A stretch of 64,000 nucleotides of DNA from NCBI GenBank assembly GCA_903901425.1, contig CAIURC010000133.1, positions 1 through 64,000 of the forward strand, written 5' to 3'. Under the pieces are notes generated by a model. That model made no database searches. It was not told the DNA's origin and saw only the letters and a program-made list of their open reading frames with translations. Position numbers and translations under genes: made by a program. Shown piece by piece: positions 1 through 22,701 of the stretch. Source of the stretch: an uncultured Spartobacteria bacterium. GTDB taxonomy: Bacteria > Verrucomicrobiota > Verrucomicrobiia > Chthoniobacterales > Chthoniobacteraceae. Within the stretch, counting starts at the first letter, position 1, and every line of letters starts with the position of its first letter.

Positions 1-83
1 GAATCGCTCCGGTGATAGCGCTCGAGCAGTTCCCGAATCTCGACCTCGCTCCGCCGCTTCCTCCGACTGGAATGGAATTTCAT
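1..83 (-). CDS. IS66-type TnpA/orf1 transposase protein, N-terminal fragment
   Basis: Only the first 27 codons are in the window (ATG at 83-81, reading off the left edge). The peptide starts MKFHSSRRKRRSEVEIRELL, with a basic N-terminus followed by an amphipathic helix of the kind that opens the helix-turn-helix of IS66 TnpA/orf1 proteins (R-S-x-x-E-I-R-x-L-L-x-x-Y/F). The start is supported by its position just inside a GTAA-type IS end. Too little is visible to exclude another small HTH protein. Confidence 0.4.
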   Translation of the reverse strand, partial: MKFHSSRRKRRSEVEIRELLERYHRSD

Positions 84-141
84 CCCCGCACTCTCTAACC
101 CTCCCAGACCGACCGCCAGATGGGGTTGCCCATATGGTTAC
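1..141 (-). mobile_element. End of an IS66-like insertion sequence (cut by window edge)
   Basis: Read on the minus strand, the element appears to begin at position 141 with GTAAC, followed by an AT-rich/GC-rich terminal stretch and, 58 bases inside, the start of a short transposase-type ORF. IS66-family elements characteristically begin with GTAA and carry a small first ORF close to that end. The boundary lies 10 bases past the R' box of an attC site, so the element has landed in or next to the following gene cassette. The other end and the target-site duplication are outside the window, so family and boundary are inference. Confidence 0.45.
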
Positions 142-151
142 GATCAACGGG

Positions 152-266
152 GCCGAACGCCCCCAATCTCAGCGACGGCGGAGGCTGGCGCGCTGGCTGC
201 GCGGGCGAAGGCGGCAGAGCAGCCAGCGTGACAACCGGAGCCGTTCGCTGTAGCGCCTGGTTCGGC
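152..266 (-). other. attC recombination site (integron cassette), site 1
   Basis: On the minus strand the R'' box GCCGAAC (266-260) and the R' box GTTCGGC (158-152) are exact inverse complements 115 bases apart. Inside them, L'' (CTaCAGCGA) pairs with L' (TCGCTGAG) apart from one unpaired A, which matches the extrahelical base of folded attC sites. Between lies a long GC-rich imperfect palindrome. The site follows the stop of the 322-831 ORF by 55 bases, as expected for a gene cassette. This is the best formed of the four sites here. Confidence 0.75.
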
Positions 267-321
267 TCAGTAGGTTTGGTTCTGATTCCAGAGACTTTCG
301 TTCGCAAATAAGGCTGCTATT

Positions 322-831
322 TTAATTTTTTAATCCCGGAAAAACATAATGAGGAAGATCACTACTTGGCACAAAAAACCTCCAAGACTCATCATGATCA
401 TGCCTACTAGATTCAGTCGGCATAACACTGAGCATCAAATTATGGTTAAAAACTAAATCAAATGCGCCAGCCTGATTACATCGCACAACAGATACCAAAA
501 ACTTTTCAGAATCCAGTAATTCATTTAGGTGCTTTGAATTCCGATGGAAGACACTTTCAGATTTAGAATCCCAATCGTATTGCTCACCGGTGACCGCATC
601 GTAATAAAAATCTGAACCTCCAAGAACGACAATGCCTGAACGAACAAATCTCCACGAACACTGCAAATGTAGCGCCCATTCGCCCACTTGCTTTTCCACG
701 CCCCGTCGATCAACAACCGAACGCATTTCACCAAAATGCAACCATAGCATGTCAGCTACGGCTCCGCATACAGCCAAACGTAAGCCTGACAAAACCTGAA
801 GCACCTCTTGATATTGTCGATTTAGATTCAT
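322..831 (-). CDS. Hypothetical cassette-encoded protein (169 aa)
   Basis: An ORF of 169 residues, visibly more AT-rich than the rest of the window. It starts at MNLNRQYQEV, 7 bases after the R' box of attC site 2, and ends 55 bases before attC site 1, so it fills one cassette exactly. No signal peptide or membrane segment is evident. The sequence alternates short hydrophobic stretches with polar residues (W-A-L-H-L-Q-C-S-W-R near residue 55, then an aspartate- and histidine-rich second half), suggesting a soluble alpha/beta protein. I do not recognise the family. Cassette genes are usually expressed from an upstream cassette promoter, and none is seen here. Confidence 0.65.
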   Translation of the reverse strand: MNLNRQYQEVLQVLSGLRLAVCGAVADMLWLHFGEMRSVVDRRGVEKQVGEWALHLQCSWRFVRSGIVVLGGSDFYYDAVTGEQYDWDSKSESVFHRNSKHLNELLDSEKFLVSVVRCNQAGAFDLVFNHNLMLSVMPTESSRHDHDESWRFFVPSSDLPHYVFPGLKN

Positions 832-837
832 ATTTTT

Positions 838-887
838 GCCGAACGTACAAGATGAGCCATTAGATTGGCTCCAGCGCCTGGTTAGGC
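838..887 (-). other. attC-like site 2 (short)
   Basis: The minus strand shows R'' GCCTAAC (887-881) and R' GTTCGGC (844-838), 50 bases apart, with an internal GAGCCA/TGGCTC hairpin. The stop codon of the 888-1250 ORF abuts R'' and the next ORF starts 7 bases beyond R', giving typical cassette geometry. The L boxes are poorly paired and the span is shorter than usual attC sites (about 57 or more bases), so the site may be degenerate or internally deleted. Confidence 0.5.
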
Positions 888-1250
888 TCAGGTTTCATTT
901 TCTTCCGGAACAACAAGAAGATCAAAAGCTAGCCGAAGTCTGATATTCTTCAACTGCCCCTCGAGAGTCGCAAAAGCTTCAGGGCTAACTACCGCCCGCT
1001 CGACCCACCCCCTTCTCCACCGACTCCAATTGGCCTGAATACCGACCACAGCATCTTTTGATGCAAGCGGCGAGTCGTCATACCCGAACTCAAATCCGCA
1101 GTGGCACATCTCAAACGAAGGACGCCCCTCGGAATCATACGGAGGGATTGAAAACTCTAGAGCACCGCATACCGGGCAGCAGTAGCTTCCGTCCTCGGAC
1201 TGATAAATGGTAAACGCCTCACCTGAGGCTTCGCATCGAATGGGTTTCAT
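888..1250 (-). CDS. Cassette-encoded small CPCC-type zinc-ribbon protein (120 aa)
   Basis: Start chosen at the ATG at 1250, 28 bases after the R' box of attC site 3; a longer reading frame would run through the attC. The protein has a cysteine cluster near residues 24-51: CCPVCG at 24-29 and CHCGFEFGYDD from 49. This pattern resembles the small Cys-rich CPCC family (two CxxC-like knuckles separated by a Pro-rich loop, then an acidic motif), which probably binds one zinc ion. The C-terminal half is a tryptophan-rich helix and a Leu-rich tail. Function unknown; a soluble cytoplasmic protein is expected. Its stop touches attC site 2. Confidence 0.65.
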   Translation of the reverse strand: MKPIRCEASGEAFTIYQSEDGSYCCPVCGALEFSIPPYDSEGRPSFEMCHCGFEFGYDDSPLASKDAVVGIQANWSRWRRGWVERAVVSPEAFATLEGQLKNIRLRLAFDLLVVPEENET

Positions 1251-1277
1251 TGCGCCCGTGCAGAATTTCGCAGCGTG

Positions 1278-1370
1278 GCCTAGCGAAACAAGCTCAGCAA
1301 CCCGGCTCGCGGGCCGCAACGATTGCAAACAAAGACGCCATGCCAGGTTAGCTGCAGCGCATTGTTTGTC
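1278..1370 (-). other. attC-like site 3
   Basis: On the minus strand the region opens with an R''-like GACAAAC (1370-1364) and closes with GCTAGGC (1284-1278). GCTgCAGCtAAC near the R'' side pairs with GTTGCTGAGC near the R' side with unpaired bases, and ACAA pairs with TTGT. The simple sites have one mismatch each to the RYYYAAC/GTTRRRY consensus. It lies 11 bases after the stop of the 1381-1623 ORF and 28 bases before the next cassette ORF. It resembles site 4 closely at its R' side. Confidence 0.6.
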
Positions 1371-1380
1371 CACGGTGTCG

Positions 1381-1623
1381 TCATAGTGCCTGCGGTCTCT
1401 GATGTCCGCACACAAGCTCCTGGCCGTCGCAGTATACTGAAATGTAACACCTGCCGAAAAACACCTGCAAGCTCTCGCCATCGTCCAAAAGCTCGAAACG
1501 GTCCTCTGCGGAATTCGCCTCGACGCGAAGCTCAAACGTCTGCTCGGGAAGCATCCAAAAGTCCGCACCCTCCGGCTCGATGTAAACAGCGCGAGGCTTC
1601 TTGCTTCGGTTTGTGATGGACAT
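1381..1623 (-). CDS. Hypothetical cassette-encoded protein (80 aa)
   Basis: ATG at 1623 chosen; a GTG four codons upstream is possible. The ORF sits between attC site 4 (27 bases upstream) and attC site 3 (11 bases downstream). The 80-residue product is acidic (EPEGADFWML, AEDRFELLDD) with alternating hydrophobic residues, suggesting a small beta-rich fold. It resembles short uncharacterised proteins that occur widely as single-domain orphans (aromatic/Pro turn, then DDGESLQVFF, then VYCDG), but I can assign no function. Confidence 0.6.
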   Translation of the reverse strand: MSITNRSKKPRAVYIEPEGADFWMLPEQTFELRVEANSAEDRFELLDDGESLQVFFGRCYISVYCDGQELVCGHQRPQAL

Positions 1624-1649
1624 GGCGTGAATCACAAGATGGTCGAGTG

Positions 1650-1751
1650 GCCTAGCGCAACAAGCTCAGCGACGGTGGAGGGACGGCGCGGCGGCTGCGA
1701 AAGCAGTAACTGTGACGCATGTAGACTGTTAGCTGCAGTGACTTGTTAGGT
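1650..1751 (-). other. attC-like site 4
   Basis: Minus-strand R'' ACCTAAC (1751-1745) followed by AAG and CACTGCAGCTAAC, and at the other end CGCTGAGCTTGTT followed by R' GCTAGGC (1656-1650), 102 bases in all. GCAGC/GCTG and AACAAG/CTTGTT supply the inverted pairing of the two half-sites. The middle is a GC-rich imperfect palindrome, like site 1. A reading frame through it gives the peptide NKSLQLT, the counterpart of NQALQRT in site 1, a signature of translated attC sites. Confidence 0.65.
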
Positions 1752-1905
1752 TTCGGTGGGAGCAGAATAAGCGCATGTAAGGAGTGGTGATCCTTTTTGG
1801 TTCTCATCAATATTCTGTTGGATTCTGGTTTCCTATTAAATGGTGCGGGTGGTTCTGTTTCTGATATGAATCGACTGCTGTTAGCTCCTCTATTTATCGA
1901 TTCAG

Positions 1906-2181
1906 TTACAGCCAAGTTTTCCATGCTCTCAAGGTAAACTCGAGGAATGAGGCTAAAGCTATAATGAAAGCGCATCCTGAAATCCATTTGGTCCAGTGGT
2001 GTATTCGGAATGAGTAAAGGAGAGCAATCAGGAAATGAAAGAGTGCAAGCGGCAGGACGCTCCAATAGAGATCTCTATAATTTGGCGCGGATGCCTGCGA
2101 AGTGAAAATCACAATATACGAAGAGAAGAGGATAAATGCCAATGCGAGTAAGCGAAGGATGGAGATGGTCCTTAAATTCAT
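1906..2181 (-). CDS. Small integral membrane protein, probably cassette-encoded (91 aa)
   Basis: The 91-residue ORF is AT-rich and highly hydrophobic, with three predicted membrane spans: about residues 7-27, 38-57 and 66-82. Charged residues fall in the short N-terminus and the RIHHWTK loop. It is the first ORF of the cluster on the minus strand; attC site 4 lies 155 bases beyond its stop, a longer gap than in the other cassettes. No attC or attI is seen upstream. Function not recognised. Confidence 0.55.
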   Translation of the reverse strand: MNLRTISILRLLALAFILFSSYIVIFTSQASAPNYRDLYWSVLPLALFHFLIALLYSFRIHHWTKWISGCAFIIALASFLEFTLRAWKTWL

Positions 2182-2756
2182 TGCTTATTTTAAATCACTC
2201 AGAATGTGGTTTCGTGAATCGTTATGCTCTGGAATTTGAAGCTGATCGTTGCCTTTAGGAATTGAAAATTGTAAGGCACGCGGATCGGACGTGTTCAGAA
2301 AACGATGGCGGATAAAAACCTAACATGTATTCGGCAGCTGCTGCAGAATTTTGCGGCTGCTGCACTTTTGGAAACATTTTTATTCCCCTACCCGATTGAG
2401 CACTGGGGCAGCAAGGGCGAAGCGCTTGGATCTCAAGGCCCGAATCGGCTTTGGGAGAAACCATCCCTCGCGGCTCCCTATCGGATCCGCAGGGGGCGAT
2501 CGTACTGCCCGCGAACTCCAGTGGCACAGCTCCCCCTGTGAACTGGACGGGTGACTTGGCCAGAAGCCCGCGTGGCTCCACTAAAAGCAGCCCGCCCATG
2601 CCGGATCAGGGCGGCGCACCTCCACACCCCTCCACACCCCTCCACACCCCTCCACACTCCCTGCCCGGGATCGCGCGGGATGAACCCTTTCTTCATCTCC
2701 GTGGCATCCCTCATGCTCTTAAAGGAACCAGCAGGTGCATCAAACCCTGGTGTCCT
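2182..2756. other. Intergenic spacer between cassette cluster and GH16 gene
   Basis: No convincing gene. The left part (to about 2300) has the low GC of the cassettes; the right part has the GC content of the chromosome, so the boundary of the accessory block lies near 2300-2400. Several open frames cross it in both directions but have repetitive, Pro-rich, unconserved-looking translations. A four-copy 10-base tandem repeat lies at 2621-2660. No integrase, attI or tRNA is visible. Confidence 0.5.
2621..2660. repeat. Tandem repeat, 10-bp unit x4
   Basis: Three exact copies of TCCACACCCC followed by TCCACACTCC. The repeat lies about 100 bases upstream of the GH16 start codon, in a G/C-skewed strand. 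The unit length is one helical turn. It could be replication-slippage noise or a protein-binding array. Confidence 0.85.
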
Positions 2757-11865: not shown

Positions 11866-12101
11866 GCCGGCAGCCATCGCCCACGGGCGGATGTAGAAAA
11901 ACTCCAGTGCCTCCGATCGTCGGACCGGGCAGGCTCGTGCCCCATTCCGGGCCTGATTGATACCCCAAAATGACGCCTTGAAGGCGACCCGGAAACAATT
12001 CCGTTTCGGGCACGCACAGTCCTTGAAGGCCGCGCCCATCCCCCCTACCGGAACGAGTTCGCCCGGTAAGCCTGTCTCCGATTTCCCGCAAACGTCTCTC
12101 C

Positions 12102-14477
12102 ATGAAAGCGGACCTTCACCTTCACTCCAAATTTAGCCAGCGCCCGCCGGAATGGTTCTTGCGAAAACTCGGCGTACCGGACTGCGCCTCCGATCCGGTG
12201 AGGCTCTACGAACTGCTGCGCCAGCGCGGAATGGACCTGGTCACCCTCACCGACCATGACACCCTGGAAGGCTGCCTTTGGATCGCAGATCGGCCCGGCG
12301 TTTTTCTGAGCGAACAGGTTACCGCCACCTTCCCCGAGGACCGGCACTCGGTACAAATCCTGGTCTGGGGACTGAACGAGGCACAGCACAGGGATATCCA
12401 ACGACTTCGCGCCAACATTTACGAACTCCAGAGCTACTTGGCTTCCCAACACCTCGCCCATGGGGTCGCTCACCCCCTGTACCCCACCGACACCCCCTCA
12501 TGCATTATTGAAAAACTGCTGCTCCTTTTTCCCCTCTTCGAATCCCTCAACGGATACCGAGACGCTCTCTGGAGCAGTACGCTCGACTTTCTTTTGGAGA
12601 ACCTCACCCGGAGAAAAATCGAGGACCTTGCCAATCGCCATGGCATCACCCCCACCCATGCCGAGCCCTGGAAAAAGTTCCGGTTTGGTGGCTCCGACGA
12701 TCACGGCGGCGTTTTTCCCGGGCGAGCCTTCACCGAGGTTCCGGGGGCGGAAGACGCGACCGGATTTCTCCACCAACTCCAGAAAGGCAGGGGCACACCC
12801 CGGGGCGAACCCGGGACGCCCATCGCATTTTCGCACGGTCTCTACAACACGCTCAGGATTTCCCTGACCGCAAAACTCCCGTCACTCGGGTCACCAAGTC
12901 CTGTGGCAGCGGCATGGGATCGGTTCATCGAAGGGCGCAACCCAACGGATTTTTCGTGGGCTGAAAAAATTGGTTTCCTCGCTCACGGAGTGGCTTCGGG
13001 CCAGTTGCTGGAATGGATCCAGCATCGGGACCTTTATGCCTCGCTTGCCGGAGACTTCCGTGGCGAAACGCTTCGGCGCCAGCTCGCCACAAGGATTCAA
13101 GCCGAACCGACTCCGGAACGCCGGGCCTTTCAGTCGGCCACCTTTCTGGCCAGTCAGTTTGCGTTCCGATGCTTTGAGCGGATTCTCGCCCGAATCCACG
13201 AGGGTAATCTGCTGGAAGCGCTCCGAGAAGCCAGCCTGCTCCTCCCAGCCGGCCTCGCACTGGCCCCTTACTTTTACGGGTTCACCAGCCAGACACCCCA
13301 CCGCGCCCGGCTTCGAAACCTCTGCCGGAACTTGTGCAACTCCGTCCCGGAAAATCTCCGGAAACGGCGCAGGGCATGGTTTACGGACACTCTGGACGAC
13401 GTCAACGGCGTTGCCACCACCATCCGGAAACTCACCGGTGCCTGCACGGCCCAAGAGATGGATCTCCTGGTTGTCACCTCGAATTCCCACCCCGCACCTG
13501 CCGAAATCCCGGTCCAGAACTTCATGCCGGTGGGTGAATTTGCGCTCCCCGAGTACGAGCTCCAAAAGCTGAGTTTCCCGCCAGTGCTTGAAATCCTGGA
13601 CTTTATTCAGCGCGAACAGTTCACGGAAATCCTGATCAGCACCCCCGGACCGGTGGGACTCACCGCGCTCCTTGCAGCCAAGGTTCTGGGCATTCCCTCG
13701 GCGGGCATTTACCATACGGATTTCCCTCAGTACGTCCGGATCCTCACTGAAGACGCCTCCCTTGAGACCCTCACTTGGTCTTATATGCGCTGGTTCTACG
13801 GCGAACTCGACGTCCTGTACGTCAATTCCGAAGGCTACCGCAGCGCCTGGATCCAACGCGGAATCGTTCCGTCCAAAATCCGGATTCTCCCCAGGGGGCT
13901 GGACACCGATCTTTTTCATCCCTCGAAAAGAGACCTCGGCTTCTGGCCGCGCCGGGGAGCCAGACAGGGTCTGCCCGTTCTTCTCTACGTGGGAAGGGTT
14001 TCCCGAGAGAAAAATCTGGAGGTTCTTCTGGCCGCGTGGCGCATGCTGGAACCCGGCTCGGCCGTTCTGGCGGTTGTCGGGGACGGCCCGCACCTTGCCG
14101 AGTTGCGGCAGGCGGCTCCTGAAGCTCTTTGCATGGGTTACCTTGTGGGAGACGAACTGGCCACGGCCTACGCCTCTGCGGATCTCTTCGTGTTTCCGAG
14201 CATCACGGACACCTACGGGAACGTGGTGGTGGAGGCCCTAGCCAGCGGCCTCCCCTGCGTGGTCAGCGACCATGGCGGCCCCAAAGACCTCGTCGTGGAT
14301 GGTCAAACCGGACGCGTCACACCGGCCCTTGATCCCGGCGCTTTTTCAAAGGCCATCCGGCAACTCCTTGCAGACCGGGAACTGCGCGCAACGATGGCGG
14401 CGGCCGCCAGGGTCTCCGTTCAGGACAGGTCCTGGCAGAACGCCGCACGGACCTTCTGGGAGTGTGCTTGGGAGTAA
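12102..14477 (+). CDS. PHP-domain / GT4 glycosyltransferase fusion
   Basis: 791 residues. The N-terminus is a PHP phosphoesterase domain (about 1-215): DLHLHSKFSQ at residues 4-13 supplies the first metal-binding His pair, LTDHDTLEG at 48-56 the second, and FGGSDDHGG near 195-203 the last Asp/His. A helical middle of about 220 residues is unassigned. From about 440 to the end lies a GT-B glycosyltransferase of family GT4: VGRVSREKNLEVLLAAWR, then FVFPSITDTYGNVVVEALAS and PCVVSDHGGPKDLV (the nucleotide-sugar E-x7-E region). A cytoplasmic or membrane-peripheral enzyme coupling phosphate hydrolysis with glycosyl transfer is plausible. dnaG starts 89 bases later. Confidence 0.85.
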   Translation: MKADLHLHSKFSQRPPEWFLRKLGVPDCASDPVRLYELLRQRGMDLVTLTDHDTLEGCLWIADRPGVFLSEQVTATFPEDRHSVQILVWGLNEAQHRDIQRLRANIYELQSYLASQHLAHGVAHPLYPTDTPSCIIEKLLLLFPLFESLNGYRDALWSSTLDFLLENLTRRKIEDLANRHGITPTHAEPWKKFRFGGSDDHGGVFPGRAFTEVPGAEDATGFLHQLQKGRGTPRGEPGTPIAFSHGLYNTLRISLTAKLPSLGSPSPVAAAWDRFIEGRNPTDFSWAEKIGFLAHGVASGQLLEWIQHRDLYASLAGDFRGETLRRQLATRIQAEPTPERRAFQSATFLASQFAFRCFERILARIHEGNLLEALREASLLLPAGLALAPYFYGFTSQTPHRARLRNLCRNLCNSVPENLRKRRRAWFTDTLDDVNGVATTIRKLTGACTAQEMDLLVVTSNSHPAPAEIPVQNFMPVGEFALPEYELQKLSFPPVLEILDFIQREQFTEILISTPGPVGLTALLAAKVLGIPSAGIYHTDFPQYVRILTEDASLETLTWSYMRWFYGELDVLYVNSEGYRSAWIQRGIVPSKIRILPRGLDTDLFHPSKRDLGFWPRRGARQGLPVLLYVGRVSREKNLEVLLAAWRMLEPGSAVLAVVGDGPHLAELRQAAPEALCMGYLVGDELATAYASADLFVFPSITDTYGNVVVEALASGLPCVVSDHGGPKDLVVDGQTGRVTPALDPGAFSKAIRQLLADRELRATMAAAARVSVQDRSWQNAARTFWECAWE

Positions 14478-14566
14478 ATTCCGCCTCGGTCTCTTGAAAA
14501 GTCTCAGAACCGAGAATTTTAGGCTCCCCGCTTGCGCAGCCCCCTCACCGCCTGTAGTGGGGGGAC

Positions 14567-16384
14567 GTGCCGCTGATTCCACCCGAGACGATCGAACAGA
14601 TCCAGAGCGCCAACGACATCGTGGAGGTCGTCGGCGCCTATTTCCCCCTCAAACGGAACGGCCCCGTCTTCAAGGCGCTCTGCCCTTTTCACCAAGAGCG
14701 CACCCCGTCTTTCTCCGTCAACCCGCAACGCCAGATCTTCAAGTGCTTCGGCTGCGGAGCGGGCGGATCGGTGATCCGGTTCGTGATGCTGTACGAAAAC
14801 CTGGATTTCATCGCAGCCGCCCGGAAACTGGCTGAACGCGCCCGGATCCCCTTGGATTTGGACGAGCTTTCCCCGGAATACTCGGCTCAGATTGAACTGC
14901 GGCGGCGGCTGATCTCGCTCCATGCGCTTGCTGCGGACTTTTTTCACCGTCAACTTCTTCGCAGCCCGGCCGCCCAGCCTGCCCGGGACTATCTCCGCAG
15001 CCGGGGTGTCTCTGTGGAGGTCGCTAAGCGGTGGAAACTGGGGTATGCCCCCGGTGGGGGCAGCACCATGGCGGCTCTGGCGCGCTCCGAGGGATTCAGC
15101 CACACCGAGCTTTTGGAAGGCGGGCTGGTCAAACCCCGGTTCGATGACCGTCCCGATGGCCCCACCTACGACCGGTTCCGGGAACGGGTCATGTTCCCGA
15201 TCAACAAAGATACCGGCGAAACCATCGCATTCAGCGGCCGGGTCCTCGACCCGGAGGCGAAGACCGCCAAGTACCTCAACTCCCCTGAAACCCCGCTTTT
15301 CACCAAGGGTGCCGTACTGTTTGGACTGGACCGGAGCAAACGCGCTTTGATCCAGGCCAAGTCCGCGATTGTCTGCGAAGGTCAGCTCGACCTGATCACC
15401 GCATTTGAGGCCGGCATTGAAAACGTCATCGCGCCGCAGGGAACCGCGTTCACCGAGAAACAGGCCCATATCCTCAAACGGTACGTGGACGAGGTTGTCC
15501 TCTGCTTCGACTCGGATATCGCCGGGGAAAAGGCCTCGGAACGCTCTCTCCCCTCGCTTCTGGCTCAAAACCTTTCAGTCCGCGTTGCCCAGATGCCAGC
15601 CGGCCACGACCCGGACTCCCTGATCCGGACCGAGGGAGCCGCCGCGTTTTCCGCTCAAATCTCTGGGGCCAAAGACTTTTTCGAGTTCCAACTCGACCGC
15701 CTCACCCAGCAACCCAGCTTTGCCACCCCAAAGGGCCGAACCAGTGCGGCACACAAGGTCGCGGCTTTCCTGAGCCTGCTTTCCGACCCGATCCGCCGGG
15801 AAACCGAGCTCCAACGGGCCTCCCACCGGCTCTCACTGCCGCCCCAGGAATTTGCGCGCCTGATCAAACCCGTGCGCACCGGCGCCGCCGCATCGTCCGG
15901 TGAATCCCCTGTCGCACCTGCCCCCGAGGACACCCCGCCCCCTCTCCAAGACCCCACGGTCCGCCTCCTGGCCACCGTGGCACTCCTAGACGAAAATGCC
16001 CGCTCATGGCTCAGGGAGGAAAACTGGGAGGATCTTCTGGCCCGCGAAACCGAGGGGCCGCTCCTTGCCAAAATCCTAGGATCCGATCTGGTCCCGGGCG
16101 ATCTGGCATCCGTAAACCGGTTCCTCGCGTCCCTGGATCCGCGCGAGGAATCCGCCGTATCCGGAATTCTCTCCGCCACGCCCCCGAAACTGGCGCTGTT
16201 GATCGCGCAGGACTGCTGGCGCGCCTTGGAGAAGCGCCAGATCCGGGACCGGATGACCGCCTTGGAAATCCAGATCCGGAACCGGATCCTCCCCGAGGAG
16301 GACGTCCTCCAACTGCAGAAACAAATCCTTGCATTAAAAAACCGGCTCTCGGATATTGTTGGGCTCCTCAAACCACCCCTTTAG
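14567..16384 (+). CDS. dnaG: DNA primase
   Basis: 605 residues from GTG 14567; this gives the usual short lead to the zinc finger. The CHC2 zinc-binding domain is at about 40-65 ([13 protein letters not shown], then [10 protein letters not shown]). The catalytic RNA-polymerase core with the TOPRIM fold follows ([26 protein letters not shown]). The C-terminal DnaB-helicase-interaction part is divergent, rich in Ala/Pro around 450. Synthesises RNA primers at the replication fork. It lies 92 bases ahead of rpoD, reproducing the dnaG-rpoD part of the classical macromolecular synthesis operon; rpsU is not adjacent. Confidence 0.95.
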
Positions 16385-16476
16385 GCCCGGTTCACCCCGG
16401 TTTCCGTGGCGGAGGCCCGGGCCGCAGGGGGTTGGTTCACGGGAGCCGCTCCCGACTCAACTTTAACCACCTGGGT

Positions 16477-18798
16477 ATGCCCAAAGCCAAACCGAACGCT
16501 GCAAAAAGCGGAAAAAATCCGCGCTTGGCCGCCGCCCCTTCAACCCACCGAAAACCGACCCCTTCTGTGAGCCCGGCTCCCAAACAGAAAAACGGCTCTC
16601 AGCCCTCCGGATCGAAGTCTGGATCGCCGAAATCCGAGAAAAACCCCAAGGAAAAGCCCACCGGCTCAATTTCAGCAAAGAAAGCGGCTTCTGGCGGAAA
16701 AAGCTCCGTGGCTCCCGGTGGAGCCAAATCGGCACAGGGTTCCACCAAAGGCACCGGGCGCGTTTCATCGGAGAACTCTCTGAAAAATACGCAACCCGGG
16801 TCAAAATCCGCTAAACCCTCAAAACCGTCCCCTTCAAAACCGTCCCCTTCAAAACCGTCCCCCCCGACGTCATCCACCAAGTCCAAGGCCACCCCCCAGC
16901 CTCCGGCGACAAAATCCAAAACCGTCCATCCCGAGCCGAAGGCAATGCCCGCATCCAAGACACCCAAAACCGCCCCTGTCAAAAAGACCGCTCCGGAACC
17001 GAAGAGCGGCTCCGGATCCTCCGCCAAACGGAAGCCGGAACAGAAAAACTCCAACGCGGCAATCCCGGTGGAGCCGGCTAAAAAAGAGGTTTCAGAGAAA
17101 AAAGATTCCGCAAAGAAAGAGGCTCAGACCGCTCCCACCAAGGCGCCTCAGGGAGGCAGCACCTCAACGGTTCTGGCAGAACAACCGGATACCCAGGAAA
17201 AAATCCGGGAACTGATCAAACTCCACAAAGAACAGGGCTACCTGACTTGGGACGACTTGAACGAAGCATTTCCTGGGGAGACAGACGGGAACGAACTCGA
17301 CGCGATCATTGTTCGGCTGGGAAGCTTGGACATCCAGATCATTGAGCCGTCCGAGGTGGACAGCGTCAAAGACATCAAAAAGGACCAGGAAGAAGAGGAA
17401 GAAGAGGAAAAGCCTGAGGCGAAACTCGATATCTTGGACGACCCGGTCCGGATGTACCTCAAGCAGATGGGCCAAGTGCCGCTGCTGACCCGGGAACAGG
17501 AGGTGGAGATCTCCAAGAGGATCGAGGACGCCGAACTCAACGTCCAAAAGTCGGTCAACCGCTTCGGGTTCATCTCCCGGGCTTACCTCGATCTCGCCCA
17601 GAAACTGCTCGAAGGCCGCGAACGCTTTGACCGGATCATCCTCGACAAAAAGATCGAGAGCCGGGATCGCTACATGAAGGTCCTGCCGCGGATCTGCCAG
17701 AATCTGGAGTCCGCCGCGCAGACCTGTTCCGACGGGTACCGCACCTACGTGACGCATGGCGGCAAAAACCACGAAACCAAGTCGTACGCCGAGTTCTCCA
17801 AAGCCCACGGGGCCATCCAGCGGATTTACCCGAAGTTCTTCTTCAAACAGAAGGTAACCGAGGAGTTTGTGCATCTGGCCGACGAAACCCACCGGATGAT
17901 CGAGCATCACCTCGAGGAACTCCGCAAGACGGGCGCCTCCGGCCCCGAACCGGGCAAGGTCGATCACGCGGCTAAACTCCGCGAAATCCAGATGCGCACC
18001 TGGCTCAGCCCGGAAGAGTTTCTCAAAGAATACTCTGAACTGAAGCTCTGGCTTCGGAAAGCGCTCAAGGCCAAGACGGAAATGGTGGAGGCCAACCTCC
18101 GTTTGGTGATCTCTATTGCCAAGAAATACACCAACCGCGGCCTCTCCTTCCTCGACCTGATCCAGGAAGGCAACATGGGGTTGATGAAAGCCGTTGAAAA
18201 GTTCGAGTACCGCCGCGGCTACAAATTCTCCACCTACGCAACCTGGTGGATCCGGCAGGCCATCACCCGATCCATCGCCGACCAGGCCCGGACCATCCGG
18301 ATCCCGGTCCACATGATCGAGACCATCAACAAGCTGATGCGGGTCCAGAAACAGCTCGTCCAAGACTACGGACGGGAACCCACGCCAGAGGAGGTGGCGG
18401 ACGAAATCCAATTGCCCGTCGAACGCGTCCGCGCCGTGCTCAAGATGGCCCAGCAACCCATCTCGCTCCAGAGCCCGGTCGGCGAAAGCGACGACACCAG
18501 CTTCGGAGACTTCATCGAGGACAAGAGCGCTGAAAACCCCAGCGACATGACCGCAATCGTCCTCTTGAAGGAAAAAATCAAGGACGTCCTTGAATCCCTC
18601 ACCGAACGCGAACGCCAGGTCCTTGAGCAGCGCTTTGGCCTCGTGGACGGCTACAGCCGCACCCTTGAGGAGGTTGGCCGCCAGTTCAAGGTCACCCGGG
18701 AGCGGATCCGTCAGATCGAGGCCAAAGCTCTCCGGAAAATGCGTCATCCCACCAGAATTCGCCAACTTGAAGGGTTCCTGGACGCAGAGCAGGTTTGA
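16477..18798 (+). CDS. rpoD: Primary sigma factor RpoD with long basic N-terminal extension
   Basis: 773 residues from ATG 16477. The first 235 or so residues are low-complexity, rich in Lys, Ser, Pro and Ala ([14 protein letters not shown] and many KK/EK patches). Region 1.1 follows ([18 protein letters not shown]), an acidic EEEEEE patch, region 1.2 ([20 protein letters not shown]), then regions 2 ([18 protein letters not shown] through [17 protein letters not shown]), 3 and 4 ([20 protein letters not shown]). Conserved regions are intact, so this is the housekeeping sigma factor. The extension is much longer than in E. coli and is of the kind seen in sigma factors of some GC-rich phyla. 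Its role is unknown. Confidence 0.96.
16821..16863 (+). repeat. 15-bp in-frame tandem repeat inside rpoD
   Basis: The unit AAAACCGTCCCCTTC occurs twice in full and then as a partial third copy, encoding KPSPS repeats. Being a multiple of three, slippage would lengthen or shorten the RpoD extension without a frameshift, so length variation between strains is expected. Confidence 0.8.
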
Positions 18799-21492: not shown

Positions 21493-22701
21493 ATGCCACA
21501 AAACCCAGCTTTTGACCCCATCGAAGAAGTCCTCGAGGAGATCCGCGCCGGCCGCATGATTGTGGTTACCGACGATGCCGACCGGGAGAACGAGGGCGAC
21601 TTGGTGATGGCGGCGGAAAAAATCACCCCTGCAGCCGTTAATTTCATGGCAATGCATGGGCGCGGCCTTATCTGTACCCCGATCACCGAGGAACGCGCCA
21701 AACAACTGGCCCTGCAGCGCATGGTGATCGAGAACCGGGAAAGTCACCGCACCGACTTCACCGTGTCGGTGGATGCCGCCCAGGGCGTCACCACGGGAAT
21801 CAGCGCGCATGACCGCGCCGAAACCATCCGGATCCTCGCAGACCCGAAATCCCGCTCGGAAGATCTGGTGCAGCCTGGCCATGTTTTTCCGCTCCGTGCA
21901 AAACCCGGGGGCGTGCTCCAACGGACCGGCCACACGGAAGCGAGCGTGGATCTCGCGCGTCTGGCTGGGCTGCAACCTGCCGGTGTGCTCTGCGAGATTT
22001 TGAATCCGGATGGCACCATGGCACGGCTGCCCGAACTTCAAAAGTTCAGGAGGAAGCACAAACTCAAGATGTGCAGCATTGAGGATCTGGTGGCTTTCCG
22101 CCGGACCCGGGAGCGGCTGGTGGAGAAGGAGCAGGAAATTCAGTTCCCCACGGCATTTGGCCAGTTCCAGCTCAACCTCTATCGCTCCCTGGTTGATGGC
22201 TGTCACCATTTGGCTCTGGTCAAGGGCAACATTTCCAAAACCAAGACCACTCTCGTCCGGGTCCACAGCGAGTGTCTGACGGGTGACATCTTTGGATCCA
22301 TGCGCTGCGACTGCGGCACCCAACTTCACAACGCCCTTGCCCAGATCGAGGCCGCCGGCTCCGGAGTTCTGCTCTACATGCGCCAGCACGAAGGACGAGG
22401 CATCGGCCTCCCAGCCAAGATCCACGCTTACAAACTCCAGGAACAAGGCTTGGACACCGTCGAAGCCAACGAAAAACTCGGGTTCCCTGCCGAACTCCGT
22501 GACTATGGAATCGGCGCCCAAATCTTGTTTGACCTCGGTGTTCGAAAAATGCGTTTCCTTACCAACAACCCGAAAAAGGTGATTGGGCTGGAGGGGCACG
22601 GTCTGAAGATCACCGAGGTGGTTCCGCTCCGTGCCGCGCCGAACCCGCACAATGCCCGGTACTTGGAGACCAAGCGGACCAAGATGGGACACACCCTCTA
22701 A
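21493..22701 (+). CDS. ribBA: Bifunctional DHBP synthase / GTP cyclohydrolase II (riboflavin)
   Basis: 402 residues, the normal length of the fusion. The N-terminal half is 3,4-dihydroxy-2-butanone-4-phosphate synthase ([16 protein letters not shown] near residue 27; [18 protein letters not shown] near 152). The C-terminal half is GTP cyclohydrolase II with its zinc cysteines ([16 protein letters not shown]) and [10 protein letters not shown]. It makes the two precursors of lumazine from ribulose-5-phosphate and GTP. ribH follows 89 bases later. No FMN riboswitch-like conserved core is recognisable in the short 5' region. Confidence 0.96.

Follow-up and report, generated by a model that had tools for sequence, protein, structure and literature searches.

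An attI-headed gene-cassette array with its integrase gene missing, from an uncultured Spartobacteria bacterium

The first 2.4 kb of contig C133 of an uncultured Spartobacteria bacterium are very probably the remains of an integron, in which four small cassettes, their recombination sites and an attI site are present and the recombinase gene is gone. The window analysed here comprises bases 1–64,000 of this contig (69,257 bp), base 1 being the contig end, and the source is a draft, metagenome-type assembly of 5.1 Mb in 224 contigs. We consider it highly probable that a reverse integron, with intI transcribed toward attI, gained cassettes at this attI and then lost intI, and that what remains is frozen, or served in trans at most. 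The features are listed in Table 1.

Table 1. Features of the array and its borders, in window coordinates.
Feature	Position	Strand	Details
Insertion-sequence end	1–141	−	terminus GTAACCATATGGG, then short ORF reading MKFHSSRRKRRSEVEIRELL
Start of fifth cassette	142–157	−	first 16 bp, between site-1 crossover and insertion-sequence end
attC site 1	152–266	−	R'' GCCGAAC, R' GTTCGGC; R1 88.2 bits, E 4e-21
Cassette 4	158–843	−	ORF 322–831 (169 aa, orphan) + attC site 1
attC site 2	838–887	−	short, 50 bp; R'' GCCTAAC, R' GTTCGGC; R1 34.6 bits, E 5e-7
Cassette 3	844–1283	−	ORF 888–1250 (120 aa, zinc-ribbon-like cysteine pairs) + attC site 2
attC site 3	1278–1370	−	R'' GACAAAC, R' GCTAGGC (degenerate core); R1 33.7 bits, E 9e-7
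Cassette 2	1284–1655	−	ORF 1381–1635 (84 aa) + attC site 3
attC site 4	1650–1751	−	R'' ACCTAAC, R' GCTAGGC (GTT core mutated); R1 57.5 bits, E 5e-13
Cassette 1	1656–2323	−	ORF 1906–2181 (91 aa, hydrophobic) + attC site 4; bounds from attI/attC cores
attI	2318–2384	−	direct repeats GCAGCAGCCGC (2363–2353) and GCAGCAGCTGC (2344–2334); core CCGAATACATG^TTAGGT
Right flank, expected intI place	2385–2756		no intI sequence detected

The attC sites were identified with a covariance model, R1, built from 19 sites beside full-length intI genes of other genera within the family and order, with nothing taken from the studied genome. The structure in the model covaries (score 0.278 vs 0.070 in shuffles), and as a positive control R1 detects the canonical aadA1 attC of a class 1 integron. 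R1 was also run on 80 contigs with integrases, drawn from many phyla, and 56 of its 57 matches there lie on one strand, 5' of intI. Over both strands of all 64 kb the model gives exactly four matches, all on the minus strand (E 4e-21 to 9e-7), and these coincide to the base with four attC-like sites proposed in a sequence-only reading of the window; the four are attC sites. An Rfam search of the region returned no attC family match, and a home-made scan for R and L boxes found sites 1 and 3 but put site 2 in the wrong frame and did not detect site 4. Single-site folding is weak for sites 3 and 4, where the covariance model is needed. At site 1 the plus strand, which is the bottom strand of the cassettes, folds better than the minus strand (−39.9 vs −33.6 kcal/mol; bottom-strand z −3.66). 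The R boxes of this site are perfectly complementary, as had been read, but in place of the single extrahelical base ascribed to it the L'' arm carries two extra bases. Site 1 is intact and site 2 keeps both cores despite its length, and in both site 3 and site 4 the R' core is GCTAGGC instead of GTTAGGC. A GTT triplet is a general requirement for crossover, and with its loss sites 3 and 4 would probably be poor recombination substrates.

Small ORFs had also been seen between the sites. Four short ORFs indeed alternate with the four attC, all on the minus strand and each stopping just short of its own attC. The AT-richness described for this DNA is true relative to context, the cassettes having 42–56% GC vs 60.5% for the window. 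No defence (PADLOC) family and no Pfam or NCBIfam family was assigned to the cassette proteins, and no family was found for the ORF of cassette 2. The product of the cassette 3 ORF has weak similarity to Zn_ribbon_8, with homologues in nine other genomes of the order (32–50% identity) and on plasmids too, and the cassette 4 ORF has a homologue in none of 196 other genomes of the order. A scan for a cassette promoter (Pc) gave only weak sigma-70-like matches on the minus strand, at 2297–2268 and 2142–2113, with five found in the region vs 2.1 expected.

The head of the array is an attI site, which the earlier reading had missed together with the insertion-sequence end at the left edge. An attI HMM whose only training sequences were the three attI sites linked to intI in this genome detects it with E 1.3e-14; its own echo on the opposite strand is weaker (0.12), and the next match in 64 kb scores 0.69. 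The site is 88% identical over 65 bp to the attI on contig C25 (E 7e-17 in 5.1 Mb), and in a comparison of cassette loci positions 2314–2383 resemble the DNA that directly follows the 3' end of intI on other contigs. It carries two direct copies of a repeat of the GCAGCAGC type, and crossover is predicted between 2324 and 2323. The plan is that of attI1 of class 1 integrons, which has a pair of direct repeats of the GCAGCA type and the core CCTAA..ACA..GTTAGGC (the attI1 sequence used as query was confirmed by a search that found it in at least 5000 plasmid records), but the window attI is otherwise diverged in sequence, and attI of this type sits 3' of intI, not 5'. The array therefore begins at its own attI and extends leftward, and the region is an attI-headed array with the integrase gene missing.

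That no integrase is visible, as noted earlier from the letters, is borne out by a genome scan with TIGR02249 and by permissive tblastn with three intI proteins (E up to 10), neither of which found intI in the window or beside attI. The sequence-only reading had left a choice between a CALIN (a cluster of attC sites lacking an integrase) and an integron whose integrase lies left of the window. By the IntegronFinder definition of at least two attC sites with the integrase absent nearby, the array is a CALIN, but the description is incomplete, since the attI is still in place; a bare CALIN, or an integron running off the left edge, was rejected because attI heads the array on the right. An integrase to the left was likewise rejected, as the contig starts at base 1, the assembly has no DNA left of it, and cassette polarity places the attI and integrase side on the right.

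At its left edge the array is cut by the insertion sequence, which interrupts the fifth cassette 16 bp past the cassette start. Four other copies, 98–100% identical and with unrelated flanks, lie on contigs C128, C94, C220 and C39, and C133 stops at this end because of the multicopy element, which may be IS66-like. To the right of attI the sequence is normal chromosome, with a GH16 gene followed by a YchF-type GTPase gene. Neither an empty site nor synteny with an intact integrase was found, and the GH16 and YchF genes lie apart in the sister genome G002. A 10-bp tandem repeat, CCTCCACACC (4.3 copies, 97% match), is present at 2619–2662, upstream of the GH16 gene.

The window array is one of several in this genome. 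With R1 at E ≤ 0.01, 25 attC sites were counted genome-wide, all within six loci: C133, C25, C41 and C196, which are on different long chromosomal contigs, and C60 and C135, which are short contigs. Eight attI sites were found in the same six loci, each of which has at least one, and one more weak match occurs on C16. Three intI copies are recognisable (C60, ∼230 codons; C196, ∼180; C135, ∼165), and all three are truncated at the 5' end; the C60 copy has two in-frame stops, and those of C60 and C135 have a two-codon deletion in common. Shorter remnants comprise the last 14 codons at C25 and ∼6 codons at the second head of C60, and neither of the two C41 heads nor the window has any. Each step of this graded series is followed by attI and cassettes, and no intact integrase was found anywhere in the genome. 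The C196 array (L039), headed by its truncated intI, includes several toxin-antitoxin-like ORF pairs between attC sites in 12700–17300, e.g. 16605–17119, 14152–14939 and 13619–14121.

Where intI is still present, at C196, C60 and C135 and on contig C45 of the genome G030, it points toward attI, and in the intI-bearing loci of the studied genome the cassettes read in the same direction as intI. Integrases from this genus group with those of G030 in a single clade supported at 100/100. The clade is nested within classical integrases from the same family and order, and in its members with enough context attI is 3' of intI. Other genera of the family have the classical layout, as do 29 of the 30 loci that could be scored around the nearest named integrases. 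The one reverse-layout candidate among these, L163 (attC at 12052–12117 on the plus strand, intI from 10001), comes from a deltaproteobacterial genome and is placed apart from the studied reverse clade. The same attI family has five copies in G030 and two in G006, with short intI 3' remnants upstream. One intact integrase appears to be present in G030, split between contigs C3 and C45. Three contigs of that genome, C3, C8 and C45 (L270, L271 and L268), end at the same point within intI (around residue 270), which would be expected had the assembly been confused by two or more near-identical copies of the gene.

In our preferred scenario, an integron with intI reading toward attI would once have stood here, with intI on the right-hand side. 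Cassettes would have been inserted at attI (G^TT, 2324/2323) by attC x attI recombination, and the minus-strand array would have grown to at least four cassettes. Later intI would have been lost while attI stayed as array head, and the insertion sequence would have cut the fifth cassette. We thus infer that IntI once inserted cassettes here, that intI was lost and not absent on arrival, and that the array is now inactive. The main argument for integrase loss is the graded series of intI remnants; as the window locus has no intI codon, the loss is read from the paralogous loci. With no intact integrase in the genome, the array is probably frozen, and the cassettes ending in sites 1 and 2, which have an intact GTT core, could in principle be moved by an integrase acting in trans.

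The chief alternative is that the head, be it attI alone or attI preceded by a 3' remnant of intI, never had its own integrase here and was attached to cassettes and carried in by an integrase in trans, like the attI-type cassettes of class 1 and 2 integrons. At C60, C41, G030 C28 and G006 C87 a single contig carries two attI heads in tandem on the same strand, so that segments flanked by two attI, or by an attC and an attI, do exist, and attI-ORF-delta-attI cassettes are known and mobile elsewhere (PMC12901181). However, 14 heads are broken at differing 5' points where neither a common junction motif nor G^TT is seen, a pattern suggestive of ordinary truncation and not of site-specific excision, and we judge this origin to be decidedly unlikely. 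A very improbable alternative is an assembly artefact, the array being part of a complete integron whose integrase is on another contig. The draft state of the assembly and the repeated insertion sequence cutting the left end would suit it, as would the inflation of CALIN counts in draft genomes (PMC9024848), but the integrase side is the right, where C133 continues for 67 kb, all intI copies of the genome are broken, each with its own attI, and C196 has its whole locus on one contig with a dead intI. That the sites are ordinary dispersed palindromic repeats, a doubt raised beforehand and suggested by the recurrence of one-family sites across the genome, is scarcely credible, as 25 of 25 genome matches are in attI-headed cassette loci, the structure covaries, and R1 picks up canonical attC from other phyla, with the strand as expected.

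CALINs in general are viewed as degraded integrons (PMC9024848), and the window CALIN is very probably an integron relic. All components are known: attC, attI, CALINs, reverse integrons, decayed intI and attI inside arrays. The chromosomal integrons of Treponema are reverse, with intI transcribed toward attI and in the cassette direction (PMC3607928), which is the layout of the intI-bearing loci here; the present clade differs in belonging, by inference, to another phylum, in nesting among classical integrases and in having many heads per genome. Similarly, attI inside arrays (C41, C60, G030 C28, G006 C87) recalls the delta-attI-type cassettes of class 1 and 2 integrons (PMC12901181), but attI here is complete and often follows a spacer and an intI 3' remnant. 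An intI survey found about one third of intI to be pseudogenes, and one fifth of integron-bearing bacteria to have more than one intI, some from duplication within the genome (PMC2426708). That survey searched for intI, whereas here attI heads were counted even where no intI remains, giving eight in one genome.

What is unusual is this number of attI sites in one genome and that a second genus shows the pattern again; of all the findings, the repeated heads hold the most interest. The head copies of G030 are 81–91% alike over attI plus spacer, and between genomes of different genera mostly only ∼40–70 bp around attI align, from which the heads seem to have been multiplied within lineages. Duplication and decay, as for intI pseudogenes generally (PMC2426708), would be the ordinary account of this multiplication. 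We suggest only tentatively, and with considerable doubt, that the integron head of this family (an intI 3' piece, spacer and attI, down to attI alone) may be a dispersible unit, multiplied separately in different lineages, that seeds new arrays at several chromosomal places, lies in tandem inside arrays and is served in trans by one integrase where that is intact, as in G030. The repeated heads make the spread of integron platforms within a genome testable, and the eight related attI, with further ones from sister genomes, establish what attI looks like in an uncharacterised clade of reverse integrons. To our knowledge attI is poorly described outside class 1 integrons, and the standard tool, IntegronFinder, does not search for or detect it there; the label CALIN therefore hides how such clusters arose.

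Two further observations concern C41 and the remainder of the window. In the C41 locus (L203, 5695–7274) one ORF follows each attI of the tandem pair, with an attC additionally after the second; the ∼260 bp upstream of each attI are 81% alike and unlike the intI-attI spacer elsewhere. At 21602–21701 on the minus strand the window matches the Rfam family V_AS9, a Vibrio antisense RNA, at 50.5 (threshold 50). Since the match overlaps, in antisense, the first part of a ribBA-like gene (21493–22701, plus strand), conserved coding sequence is its likelier cause.
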